Of a stretch of DNA of 64,000 bases, positions 13,219 through 17,593 are shown one piece after another. Positions within the stretch are counted from its first letter, which is position 1. The number at the start of each line of letters is the position of its first letter. The DNA lies in assembly GCA_947493945.1 (NCBI GenBank), contig CANLSR010000001.1, positions 434,001 to 498,000 on the forward strand. The letters run 5' to 3'. The position numbers and the translations under genes are program-made. The stretch is from an uncultured bacterium (lineage in GTDB: Bacteria; Bacteroidota; Rhodothermia; Rhodothermales; Rubricoccaceae). The notes beneath the pieces were generated by a model. The model ran no database searches and was not told where the DNA came from. It worked only from the letters and a program-made list of their open reading frames with translations.

Positions 13219-14808
13219 ATGACTCAGAACCGACCGGAGAAGACGATGACATCGCGTCTCTCGACTCTATTCCTGTGGTGCGCGGCACTACTCCTCGCCT
13301 CCGCGGCGCAGGCCCAGGTGGTCCGCCCCAGCAACTCGGCCTACATCCTCCTCCGTGGCGGCGCGACCGCGTACTACGGCGACCTCGACAACAACCCCGA
13401 CGGCGATCCCAACGAGACCTCGTGGAAGATCGGTGACGGGTTCGACGAGGTCGGCTTCGCCGTTGGCGGCGAGCTGGGTTACCTCTTCAGCGACAACCTG
13501 TCGCTCGGGCTGGCCTACATGTACCAGACCAACCCGAACCTGGAGCGGGACCTCCCGGAGGTCAACACTTACAACGAAGGCGAGCACGTCCAGCAAGGCC
13601 AGCTGCTCTTCCGGTACCTCCCGTTCGCGACCGCCCGCGTCTCGCCCTACGTCGAGCTCGGTGCGGCCATGGTCTTCGGCCAGGGCACGGAGAACGAGCG
13701 CGGCGAGGGCACGGGCATCGGCGACGACGTCTGGGGCTACGGTCCGGTCGTCGGTCTCGGCCTCGACGTTGCACTGACCCCGCGCCTGGGCCTGTTCCTC
13801 GGCGCCCAGTCGACGTTCGTCTTCCCGGACGTGGCGCTCGACGGCGCCGATCCGGGCGCGTTCGGTGTCACCGGCGACGACTCTGACTTCGACATCCTCG
13901 CCAACGTGGGCGGTGGTCTCAAGTTCGCGTTCCGCGCTCCGTTCACGGCCGTCGAGATCGAGGGCCTGGAGTGCCCGAGCGAGCTCAACGTCGGCCAGAC
14001 GGGCTCGTTCATGGTCATGACCAACGCCGACGCCGACATGCCCGTCTCGACGACGTGGCAGTGGGGCGACGGGTCGACGGGCTCGGGCATGAGCGCCTCG
14101 CACGCCTTTGGCGCCCCCGGCACCTACACGGTGACCGCGATGGCGACCAACCGGGGCGGCGACGACTCGGAGTCCTGCCTGGTCACGGTGACCGAGCGCC
14201 CGGTGATGCCGACCCTCGCGGGTTGCCGCGCCACGCCGAGCCGCGTCGACGTCGGTGAGCAGGTCACGATCAACGCGACCGCGACGGACGCCGAGACGGT
14301 CAGCATCGACTTTGGTGACGGCACCACGGCTTCGACGCTCCCGGCCCGCCACGCGTACAGCGACACGGGTAGCTACACCGTCACGATCACCGCGACGAAC
14401 CAGTACGGGACCGAGACCTGCACCATCCCGGTGACGGTCGGCGACACGTACTGCGACGACATCACGGAGCTCAACCCGGTGTTCTTCGGCTACGGAGCCT
14501 CGACGCTCACGGCCGACGCCATGAGCCGTCTGGACGAGAACATCGAGATCCTGCGCCGCTGCCCGGAGATCTGCGTCACGATCAACGGCTACAGCGACGG
14601 CTCGGAGCCGGGTGATGCCATGCGCATCTCGCAGCGCCGTGCCGACGCCGCGATGGAGTACTATGTGGCTCAGGGCATCGACGCCGACCGCCTCCGCGCC
14701 GTTGGCCGCGGTGTCGACCCCGACGCCAACTCGAAGGAGGATCCGGGCCCGGGCGACAGCCGCGCGCGTCGCGCCGACTCGATCCCGTCGTCCTGCGCCG
14801 GCTTCTAA
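13219..14808 (+). CDS. OmpA-family outer-membrane protein with beta-barrel N-terminus and two PKD-like domains
   Basis: Signal peptide, outer-membrane barrel-like N-term, PKD motifs (WGDGSTGSGMSASHAFGAPGTYTVTAMATN; DFGDGTTASTLPARHAYSDTGSYTVTITATN), OmpA C-terminal NGYSDG..RISQRRADAAMEYYVAQGID. Confidence 0.88.
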   Translation: MTQNRPEKTMTSRLSTLFLWCAALLLASAAQAQVVRPSNSAYILLRGGATAYYGDLDNNPDGDPNETSWKIGDGFDEVGFAVGGELGYLFSDNLSLGLAYMYQTNPNLERDLPEVNTYNEGEHVQQGQLLFRYLPFATARVSPYVELGAAMVFGQGTENERGEGTGIGDDVWGYGPVVGLGLDVALTPRLGLFLGAQSTFVFPDVALDGADPGAFGVTGDDSDFDILANVGGGLKFAFRAPFTAVEIEGLECPSELNVGQTGSFMVMTNADADMPVSTTWQWGDGSTGSGMSASHAFGAPGTYTVTAMATNRGGDDSESCLVTVTERPVMPTLAGCRATPSRVDVGEQVTINATATDAETVSIDFGDGTTASTLPARHAYSDTGSYTVTITATNQYGTETCTIPVTVGDTYCDDITELNPVFFGYGASTLTADAMSRLDENIEILRRCPEICVTINGYSDGSEPGDAMRISQRRADAAMEYYVAQGIDADRLRAVGRGVDPDANSKEDPGPGDSRARRADSIPSSCAGF

Positions 14809-14841
14809 GCTGACGTAAGTCAACGAGCCTCGCGCTCCCGG

Positions 14842-14875
14842 AAGGGGCGGCCTGCCACGCGGCAGGCCGCCCCTT
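14842..14875 (+). terminator. Terminator-like hairpin after the OmpA-family gene
   Basis: Perfect 15-bp stem AAGGGGCGGCCTGCC-acgc-GGCAGGCCGCCCCTT followed by T-rich TCATTTG. Confidence 0.85.
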
Positions 14876-14909
14876 TCATTTGTGGACAGCCTGCGCGACG
14901 TCCGCTAGC

Positions 14910-14950
14910 GGCGGCGCTCGCGTCCACAGTCTGCGCCCGCGAGCGCCGCC
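14910..14950. repeat. Inverted repeat GGCGGCGCTCGCG-N15-CGCGAGCGCCGCC
   Basis: Perfect 13-bp arms 14910-14922 / 14938-14950; interleaves with TGTGGAC/GTCCACA (14881-14887/14922-14928). Confidence 0.65.
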
Positions 14951-15240
14951 AGGCTGGCGGTCTGGTTCAGCAGCGCGGAGGCCGACGGCGACAACCGCAG
15001 CCTCCGACCTGGACACCAGACGACGCTGGGTGCGACGTGGCGCCTCTGCCCCGCGGTCGGCCGCTCGGAGACGGCCGAGTCCCCGGTCCAATCCGCCGGC
15101 CTCGTCTCTCCACCGGAGCCGTCGTCGACTGCGAGACCTGACCGCAGACGCCCGAGACGTGTTCGTGGCGATCGGGCTGTCTGTAGGCGGCCCGGTCTCT
15201 TGCGCGAGACGGAGCGCCCACGTCTTAGAGACCGCGCCCA

Positions 15241-15266
15241 CCGCTGGCGCCGTCCGCCGCCAGCGG
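15241..15266. repeat. Inverted repeat CCGCTGGCG-N8-CGCCAGCGG
   Basis: Perfect 9-bp arms directly upstream of the ArsR/Cys-peptide promoter. Confidence 0.7.
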
Positions 15267-15275
15267 AACGGGGGC

Positions 15276-15327
15276 TTGACAATTGGAGCCGATATGGTTA
15301 TCGTTCATCGGCGATCAACGATGAACG
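15276..15327 (+). promoter_or_regulatory. Putative promoter with overlapping ArsR-type operator
   Basis: TTGACA (15276-15281), 17-nt spacer, TATCGT (15299-15304); inverted repeat CGTTCATC-N10-GATGAACG at 15302-15327 overlapping the -10/start region. Confidence 0.6.
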
Positions 15328-15352
15328 TCCCATTCCACCAACCCACACCCCC

Positions 15353-15451
15353 ATGATTGACCGGCCCATTGCCAACTGTCCCACGTGCGGCTGCGACGGC
15401 GACTGTTGCGGAGACGACTGCTGCTGCTGCGCTGACGACTGCTGCTGCTAA
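15353..15451 (+). CDS. 32-aa cysteine-rich peptide (12 Cys): MIDRPIANCPTCGCDGDCCGDDCCCCADDCCC
   Basis: ATG-to-TAA ORF between promoter/operator and terminator-like hairpin upstream of arsR-family gene; Cys spacing with Asp/Gly only. Confidence 0.6.
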   Translation: MIDRPIANCPTCGCDGDCCGDDCCCCADDCCC

Positions 15452-15481
15452 CCCTCTCCACCGACGCCGGCCCCCTCTACC

Positions 15482-15523
15482 GACGCCGGCCCCGTACGCC
15501 TGGGCGCCGGCGTCCCCCTTTTT
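15482..15523 (+). terminator. Intrinsic terminator/attenuator-like hairpin between Cys-rich peptide and ArsR gene
   Basis: GACGCCGGC+CCC paired with GGG+(C bulge)+GCCGGCGTC, 8-nt loop, then CCCC TTTTT; ends 8 nt before the arsR-family ATG; second copy of the left arm at 15460-15474. Confidence 0.65.
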
Positions 15524-15531
15524 CGACCCCC

Positions 15532-15822
15532 ATGACTCCCGACCCCGTCCTCATTGCCAAGGCCCTCGCGTCGACCGCGCGGCTCGACATCCTGAGCGCC
15601 CTCAGCGAGCGGGGCACCTGCGTATGCGGCGAAGTGGTGGAGGTGGTGGGGCTGGCGCAGTCGACGGTGTCGCAGCACCTCAAAGTGCTGAAAGAGGCGG
15701 GGCTGGTGAGCGGCCAGGTCGAGGGCACGCGGACCTGCTACTGCGTCGACCGCGAGGGGATGGCGGCGGCGCACGACACGCTCGGCGGCTTGCTCAACGG
15801 CCTCGCGTGCCGTTGCTGCTAG
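15532..15822 (+). CDS. ArsR/SmtB-family metalloregulator
   Basis: Winged-helix STARLDILSALSERGTCVCGEVVEVVGLAQSTVSQHLKVLKEAGLV; CVC metal-box-like motif, additional CYC and C-terminal CRCC. Confidence 0.9.
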   Translation: MTPDPVLIAKALASTARLDILSALSERGTCVCGEVVEVVGLAQSTVSQHLKVLKEAGLVSGQVEGTRTCYCVDREGMAAAHDTLGGLLNGLACRCC

Positions 15823-15832
15823 GCCGGCTGGG

Positions 15833-17593
15833 CTAGGCGCTGACGCCCGCTCCGACGCGCGTCAGGTGCATCACGACGGGGAGGCGGCGGCCCACGCCGA
15901 ACGCCTTCTCGCTTACCCGGAGCCCTGGCGCGGCCTGGCGCCGCTTGTACTCCGAGCGGTCGACCATCTGGGCGACGCGCTCGACCAAGGCGAGGTCGGC
16001 GCCGGTCTGGCGGGCGATCTCGGCGATCGACTCGTGGTGCTCGACGTAACGAGTCAGGATGGCGTCGAGGACGTCGTAGGGCGGCAGCGAGTCCTGGTCG
16101 ACCTGGCCGGGGCGGAGCTCGGCGGAGGGCGGTTTGGTGATCGTGCGGCGCGGGACCAGGTCCCGCCCAGCGCGGGCGTTGACGTGTTCCGCCAGCCGGT
16201 AGACCTCGGTCTTGAACACGTCGGAGATCACCGCCAGCCCGCCGGCCATGTCGCCGTAGAGCGTCGAGTAACCGACGGCCACCTCGGACTTGTTGCCGGT
16301 CGTGAGCAGGAGGTACCCGAACTTGTTCGAGAGCGCCATCAGCGTCAGCCCCCGCGCGCGGGCCTGGACGTTCTCCTCCGTCACGTCCTCCTCGGTGCCG
16401 GCGAACAGCGGGGCCAGCATCTCGCCGAAGGCGTTCACGGCCGGGTGGATCGAGACGTTGTGGAACTCGATGCCGAGCGCGTCCGCCAGCTGGCGGGAGT
16501 CGTCGACGGAGCCGGCCGACGAGTACGCCGAGGGCATCGTGACGCCGACGACGCGTTCCGGCCCCAGCGCCTCGACGGCCAGCGCGCACGTCACCGCCGA
16601 GTCGATGCCCCCGCTCAGCCCGACCAGCCCCTTCTCGAACACGCCGTCGCCCGTCTTGGCCACGTAGTCGCGGATGCCGAGCACGAGCGCGTCGTGGACC
16701 TCGGCGGTCGCGTCCTCGGGCCCCACGACGGGGACCGGCCCGCCGGGCGCTTCGCTGTCCCACACGTAGAAGTCGTCCCGGAACGGCGCGGCGTGCCACA
16801 GCACCCGGCCGTCGGCCGACTGGACCTGGCTGTCGCCGTCGAAGATCAGCTCGGTGTTGGCGCCGACCTGGTTGACGTAGACGAACGGCACGCCGTGCTC
16901 GCGGCAGCTGTCGCCGATCAGCCGGCGCCGCTCATCCGGCTTGCCCACCGCGTAGGGGCTGGCGGAGAGGTTGACGAACAGGTCGACGCCCAGCGCCGCC
17001 AGCTCGTCGATGGGGTTGGCGGCGTAGAGGTAGTGGTTTGCTGTGCCGTCGGGGTGGCCGTCCCGTTCGTGCCCCGCCGGGCCGTCTCCTCCGTGACCGA
17101 CGTCGTCGTCGGCGCCGACGATCTCGTAGTTGTTCCACAGGTCCTCGCACACGTGGAGGCCCAGGCGCAGCCCGCCCCACTCGACCACGCGGCGCTCGGG
17201 ACACGGCTCGAAGTAGCGGGCCTCGTCGAACACGTCGTACGTGGGCAGCAGCGTCTTGGAAACGGCGTCTTGGACGCGCCCGCCAGCGATCAGCAGCGCC
17301 GAGTTGAACAGCCGCTTGCCCACCGGCGTGTCGTTGCGCACCGGCGCGCCGACGACCAGCGCCAGCCCGTCGGGCGCGCGCTCGGCGATCGACCGCACCG
17401 CGTCGTCCACGTCGTCCAAGAACGCCGGCCGGTCCAGCAGGTCCTGGGGCGGGTAGCCGGTGACGCACAGCTCGGGGAAGACCGCCAGCTCGGCGCCGGC
17501 CTCGGCCGCTCGGCGGGCGTCGCGCAGGACGAGCTCGGCGTTGCCGGCGAGGTCGCCGACGGTGGGGTTGATCTGGCAGAGGGCGATCCGCAT
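15833..17593 (-). CDS. nadE: Glutamine-dependent NAD+ synthetase (nitrilase plus synthetase domains)
   Basis: MRIALCQINPTVGDLAGNAE; CEDLWNNY; GLSGGIDSAVTCALAVEALG; TTGNKSEVAVGYSTLYGDMAGG. Confidence 0.95.
   Translation of the reverse strand: MRIALCQINPTVGDLAGNAELVLRDARRAAEAGAELAVFPELCVTGYPPQDLLDRPAFLDDVDDAVRSIAERAPDGLALVVGAPVRNDTPVGKRLFNSALLIAGGRVQDAVSKTLLPTYDVFDEARYFEPCPERRVVEWGGLRLGLHVCEDLWNNYEIVGADDDVGHGGDGPAGHERDGHPDGTANHYLYAANPIDELAALGVDLFVNLSASPYAVGKPDERRRLIGDSCREHGVPFVYVNQVGANTELIFDGDSQVQSADGRVLWHAAPFRDDFYVWDSEAPGGPVPVVGPEDATAEVHDALVLGIRDYVAKTGDGVFEKGLVGLSGGIDSAVTCALAVEALGPERVVGVTMPSAYSSAGSVDDSRQLADALGIEFHNVSIHPAVNAFGEMLAPLFAGTEEDVTEENVQARARGLTLMALSNKFGYLLLTTGNKSEVAVGYSTLYGDMAGGLAVISDVFKTEVYRLAEHVNARAGRDLVPRRTITKPPSAELRPGQVDQDSLPPYDVLDAILTRYVEHHESIAEIARQTGADLALVERVAQMVDRSEYKRRQAAPGLRVSEKAFGVGRRLPVVMHLTRVGAGVSA

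Follow-up and report, generated by a model that had tools for sequence, protein, structure and literature searches.

The window, i.e., the whole stretch of 64,000 nucleotides analysed here from an uncultured member of the Rubricoccaceae, contains a compact unit in which a short cysteine-rich ORF lies between a promoter and a gene for an ArsR/SmtB-family repressor. Upstream, an OmpA-like gene ends; downstream, a NAD synthetase-like gene runs convergently (both by eye), and the unit thus consists of two genes. Its features, in window positions, are as follows.

15276-15304, plus strand: promoter TTGACA (15276-15281) N17 TATCGT (15299-15304), 10/12 matches
15300-15322, no strand: putative ArsR operator ATCGTTCATCGGCGATCAACGAT, consensus ATCGTW-N11-WACGAT, overlapping the -10; consensus conserved across relatives
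15302-15327, no strand: 8-10-8 inverted repeat, CGTTCATC (15302-15309) and GATGAACG (15320-15327), from the sequence
15353-15451, plus strand: cysteine-rich peptide gene (ORF), 32 aa with 12 Cys, MIDRPIANCPTCGCDGDCCGDDCCCCADDCCC; positional homologues in L046, L047, L049 and L050
15482-15523, plus strand: intercistronic stem-loop (15482-15514, by folding), then CCCC and T5 (15519-15523); terminator-like or processing/stabilising
15532-15822, plus strand: arsR, ArsR/SmtB-family repressor of 96 aa (profile search), ATG at 15532, stop at 15820-15822

An 83-aa frame starting from a TTG at 15200 and containing the peptide was rejected as a gene, since it spans the promoter and is conserved in its last part only.

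Profile searches of the repressor gave 54.8 bits (8.4e-15; curated cut-off 22) against PF01022 and 73.7 bits (7.9e-21; curated cut-off 55) against NF033788. An earlier note on this DNA had described a 32-aa, 12-Cys ORF in front of an ArsR-type gene whose product carries a CVC box, a CYC and a C-terminal CRCC; the ORF was confirmed at 15353-15451, both profiles bear out the family assignment, and the cysteine motifs were found as TCVCGE, TCYC and CRCC. Across ten peptide-linked ArsRs, Cys 30, 32, 69 and 96 are invariant and Cys 93 and 95 nearly so, which gives cysteines for a candidate metal(loid) site. The C-terminal tails of the peptide-linked ArsRs are cysteine-rich (CRCC, CACGDDCSCC, CTCACCS; L045-L118; p = 2.9e-6) and resemble the peptides themselves; most ArsRs without a peptide end in a plain CC. 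AfArsR uses three closely spaced cysteines, and a 10-residue peptide modelled on it, with 3 Cys, binds As(III) (PMC11212059).

The promoter, present at 15276-15304 as the earlier note had given it, is the only sigma-70-like site within 15150-15900 (0.1 expected in shuffles), and the TTGACA-N17-TATCGT arrangement recurs in the relatives L049 and L050. The 8-10-8 repeat that had been noticed over the -10 is also there, but the conserved operator is a different palindrome, ATCGTW-N11-WACGAT, which partly overlaps the repeat and is better kept among relatives. This palindrome was found upstream of 40 of 167 arsR genes, with one copy in the remaining 1.19 Mb, and in peptide-first loci it precedes the peptide and not arsR (L045; near-matches by eye in the others). 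The conserved palindrome at the unit's own promoter is the putative operator, to which ArsR may bind. Given that the only exact consensus copy in the window's genome is the one at 15300-15322, the window's ArsR would, judged by consensus, control just the peptide and itself.

A stem-loop that did not figure in the earlier description separates the two genes. It folds with -29 kcal/mol (z -3.2) and coincides with terminator-like matches, and strong hairpins occur at the corresponding place in four relatives, the z values over the five loci ranging from -2.4 to -5.6. Since a clear U-run follows the hairpin in two of the five loci, termination is plausible but not general. A separate observation is that two tandem copies of ACCGACGCCGGCCCC, the 5′ arm of the hairpin, lie at 15459-15495 ahead of the 3′ arm; either could pair, which would give alternative hairpins.

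The window peptide matched no Pfam or NCBIfam profile, including the prokaryotic SmtA-type metallothionein profile of Pfam, and ten other arsR-linked peptides matched no Pfam profile, with the proviso in both searches that filters may lose short Cys-rich queries. An Rfam scan of 14800-16000 gave sub-threshold matches only. In composition the peptide is metallothionein-like, being small and Cys-rich (12 Cys in 32 aa) with CC and CXC and few aromatics, and the arsR-adjacent peptides of the order as a whole have 25% Cys, almost no aromatics and almost no histidine.

The synteny check proposed in the earlier note, for Cys-rich ORFs upstream of arsR in relatives, came out in favour of conservation. 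In the Rubricoccaceae, a Cys-rich peptide of 21-32 aa lies between operator and arsR in all five loci with visible upstream sequence, the window included (the upstream part of a sixth, L048, is lost to a contig end). The four relatives encode MKTSCCGCCGTDLCTCGGDCC (L046), MTNTPHSACCDPGCCGGGRCGD (L047), MLPTTLSHCTCSDPDCDCGGGCC (L049) and MILYACCDCDCDDGACDCGCCCC (L050), and they differ in how many Cys codons they have and where these lie, L047 having 5 Cys. Among 79 arsR homologues from 114 genomes of the order, a Cys-rich sORF adjoins arsR in 11, five of them upstream and six downstream (in six further Rhodothermales genomes). This compares with 1.4 expected (p = 2.8e-7; one detector, both strands, all loci), and when an Asp/Glu/Gly-rich composition filter was added, 7 were observed against about 0.1 expected. 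The first detector was set at 5 Cys and 17%; L073 was found through a relaxed detector and reading of the flanks. Among 40 arsR loci from other parts of the class, none had a peptide, and tblastn of the L307 peptide against plasmids gave no match. Outside the class, all six of the closest Gemmatimonadota ArsRs are followed, about 54 nt behind arsR, by MT[NS]VCGCCC[DG]GGCC[GC]G[PA]CC. These genes have GGAGG(A/G) ahead of the ATG (GGAGGA, Shine-Dalgarno-like, in most) and a GC-rich, terminator-like hairpin behind, and their substitutions are too few for a selection test. Four Bacteroidota likewise have the peptide downstream of arsR, e.g., MKVQSIFQKDPSPCCGTGSDCCNITDWGCC. Overall, the peptides are 19-36 aa long, too short and too varied for alignment across clades, and lie downstream of arsR in 16 of 21 loci. 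In the ArsR tree, which is poorly resolved, the peptide-bearing genes fall in several clades, requiring at least 10 changes between having and lacking a peptide.

The genes around these units point to arsenic. An arsC-like reductase and ArsN2 lie behind the peptide-arsR pair in L046, L047, L049 and L050, arsC is linked to the peptide unit in L074 and L276, ArsN2, an aquaporin and arsC in L307, and ArsN1 and arsC in L308; the ArsN2 matches are above the NCBI cut-off, and those to arsC, aquaporin and ArsN1, though clear, fall short of it. In relatives of the window unit, arsR thus occurs together with arsenic detoxification genes, as in an ars operon, and these linked genes indicate an arsenic context rather than zinc. 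The window itself does not have this arrangement, its arsR being followed by the convergent NAD synthetase-like gene, and its genome (93.8% complete) gave no match to arsC (TIGR02691) or Acr3 (TIGR00832). The cassette therefore stands alone there and its arsenic role rests on the relatives, so that, of all the steps, the identity of the metal is the least sure for this genome. Other ars genes are absent nearby in 10 of 18 peptide loci. Three further observations concern the arrangement of ars genes in the sample. In L050, arsC and an ArsN2-like acetyltransferase share one frame from about +1 to +760 after arsR, a likely ArsC-ArsN2 fusion; in L116 (G025:C163), one frame of at least 216 aa, cut off where the contig stops, covers ArsR and the beginning of ArsM and may be an ArsR-ArsM fusion; and in L009, L011 and L012 a second ArsR beside an aquaporin (MIP)-like gene (by eye) may form a separate arsenite-channel unit.

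Close ArsR relatives without a peptide often have arsM or acr3 next. The results showed that arsM adjoins arsR in none of 16 peptide loci versus 72 of 136 peptide-less loci (p = 1.8e-5). At the genome level, ArsM scored above cut-off in 1 of the 11 genomes with a peptide and in 38 of the 58 arsR-bearing genomes without one (p = 7e-4). Among a further 30 Bacteroidota arsR loci, the two with a peptide (both already counted) have no arsM behind, and nearly all others have it. Phylogenetically independent contrasts are few, with three well-supported pairs, so that fewer events took place than the p values suggest, and the associations with the ArsR tail and with arsM may both reflect few events. 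Given the arsenic gene neighbours and the peptide in the place of arsM, As(III) is better supported as the ligand than Cd, Cu or Zn.

The arsR-linked ArsM proteins of the Rhodothermales often carry a Cys-rich N-terminal leader of their own, e.g., MITTIEIEKEDVACCGDDCCSDT (L093), ...AACCGPDCCADD (L097) and MTIEILVDKCCG (L088), with motifs such as ACCGDDCCSD (L093) and CCGPDCCADD (L097) that are like those of the peptides. Unusual N-terminal ArsM extensions of this Cys-rich kind were seen in L093, L095, L097 and L075. The L110 peptide starts MTIDIIVDRT and the L088 ArsM starts MTIEILVDKCC. When 624 other gene starts were compared with L088, nearly all scored below the starts of the L110 (MTIDIIVDRTSACTCG...) and L073 (MTYEIVLTRPENNDGGCCGGDCCGD) peptides, 1 equalling the score for L110 and 2 that for L073. 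The window peptide showed no start similarity to the ArsM starts. Since the similarity is clear for L110 and L073 and not for the window peptide, an origin of the peptides from ArsM leaders is suggestive for one clade only. The wider reading, that the peptides are free-standing arsenite-capture leaders of ArsM, kept in several lineages in which the methyltransferase was lost or replaced so that methylation gave way to sequestration, is a tentative one that we think may well be wrong.

A repressor-controlled thiol peptide is, from the sequence comparisons, the best reading of the cassette. Building on the conservation, the position, the shared operator, the hairpin, the arsenic neighbours of the relatives and the arsM exclusion, we propose that, probably though by no means certainly, the ORF is a genuine gene whose product is a metallothionein-like thiol peptide that binds arsenite, within a transcription unit autoregulated by ArsR. 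On this proposal, ArsR bound to the palindrome over the -10 would shut off both the peptide gene and arsR, and As(III) bound by ArsR cysteines, probably those of the Cys-rich C-terminal tail, would release it from the operator. With the peptide first in the transcript and the stem-loop after it, read-through would be limited or the upstream part stabilised, giving many peptides and few ArsR molecules; peptide output is thus probably in excess over ArsR. Once translated, the peptide would hold As(III) in thiolates, with three thiols to each As, until its level drops; As(III) would be both inducer and ligand, and the effect protective. The earlier note had likewise placed a thiol peptide under control of the regulator, and a conserved Cys-rich ORF by arsR, behind an arsR-type operator, agrees with this; its picture of a special minimal smtA/smtB does not hold, as the position varies and the neighbours are arsenic genes. 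The buffering of As, Cd, Cu and Zn suggested there narrows in the same way, with As(III) favoured and the other three less supported by the linked arsC, arsN2, arsN1 and aquaporin genes and the place of arsM.

The peptide could instead be an arsenic metallochaperone and not a sink, handing As(III) to an aquaporin, an efflux pump or the Cys tail of ArsR in the manner of ArsD. The similar Cys-rich tails of the peptide-linked ArsRs, the aquaporin linked in L307 and arsC in several loci would suit such a role, as would the comparable ArsM leaders, in that the motif may capture As(III) for a partner. No common partner is seen, however, given the 10 of 18 units without another ars gene nearby and the lack of arsC and Acr3 matches in the window's genome, and so short and variable a sequence leaves no room for a fixed docking surface, so that we regard this as unlikely. 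Slightly less likely still, the peptide might be a general metallothionein for copper, zinc or cadmium, with an ArsR responding to those metals. Cys-rich composition under ArsR/SmtB control does resemble SmtA/SmtB and BmtA/BxmR (PMC8790569), and the window's genome is without arsC and Acr3, but the neighbours in relatives are arsenic genes, the close peptide-less ArsRs are followed by arsM or acr3, and the peptides have almost no histidine.

It is also improbable that the ORF is a functionless poly-Cys leader, in which ribosome stalling at Cys codons, with cysteine short or thiols arsenylated, alters the hairpin and so controls arsR, in the way of the mycobacterial attenuators that respond to cysteine. 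The window ORF does precede a terminator-like hairpin and arsR, as expected of a Cys-codon attenuator, the tandem copies of the 5′ arm could permit alternative pairing, and poly-Cys regulatory sORFs exist in mycobacteria according to Canestrari et al. 2020, as cited in PMC9094748. Yet 16 of 21 loci have the peptide behind arsR, the gene that follows in L073 and L118 is apparently on the opposite strand so that no gene is left to attenuate, the Cys codons vary in number and position (5 Cys in L047), and ArsR is not a cysteine-supply gene. A chance, untranslated TGC-rich ORF from a CTG-like repeat, to which the short length and the TGCTGC runs of the window copy might point, is very improbable in view of the excess beside arsR (11 against 1.4; 7 against about 0.1 with the composition filter), an Asp/Gly-rich composition unlike that of background matches, the position kept in three lineages (one of the copies, L276, lacking long TGC runs) and the GGAGGA before most Gemmatimonadota copies. 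By these comparisons the window ORF is not a chance ORF.

A 2025 paper reported that no intracellular sequestration gene was found in the ars operon (PMC12093948), and we found no earlier report of an ars-linked metallothionein in the open-access literature searched. If the arsenite-binding reading is true, a dedicated peptide of this kind would be present in ArsR-controlled units of at least three lineages (Rhodothermales, Gemmatimonadota and Bacteroidota) and would supply the function reported missing from ars operons (PMC12093948). If the ArsM-leader reading is also true, the peptides would be that missing sequestration gene, and the window, with repressor and peptide, its most reduced form. 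Genes for peptides of 19-36 residues would rank with the smallest of metallothionein-like type; they are likely overlooked by annotation and could be used as genetically encoded arsenic binders. The arsM exclusion suggests that arsenite is met either by sequestration or by methylation.

SmtA, which binds zinc and cadmium, is longer than the present peptides. In each of the pairs smtA/smtB, bmtA/bxmR and nmtA/AzuR, a metallothionein is controlled by a repressor of the ArsR/SmtB family (PMC8790569). The unit shares with Synechococcus smtA/smtB a Cys-rich peptide, an adjacent ArsR/SmtB repressor and a palindrome at the promoter (here a putative operator with predicted binding), but smtA and smtB are divergent (PMC8790569), whereas the present genes are co-oriented, encode 19-36 aa without a Pfam metallothionein match and stand in an arsenic context. 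In Oscillatoria brevis, bmtA and bxmR likewise place a metallothionein and an ArsR/SmtB-family repressor in one operon, and in Anabaena the target of AzuR is a 12-2-12 imperfect repeat in front of nmtA (PMC8790569); both systems differ in being cyanobacterial, in their zinc/cadmium context and in their unrelated peptide sequences, and nmtA and azuR are not adjacent. With ars operons (arsR-arsM, arsR-arsC-arsN2, arsR-acr3) the units have the ArsR clade, the operator consensus and the neighbour genes of the relatives in common, but carry an extra peptide gene where arsM would be. The Cys leader of Rhodothermales ArsM has similar motifs, the present peptides being free-standing and without a methyltransferase domain. 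The mycobacterial polycysteine leader sORFs (Canestrari et al. 2020) are alike in being short Cys-rich ORFs before another gene; the present peptide differs in lying mostly downstream of arsR with arsenic and not cysteine genes as neighbours. By analogy, the cassette may work like smtA/smtB or bmtA/bxmR, yet outside the known metallothionein families.
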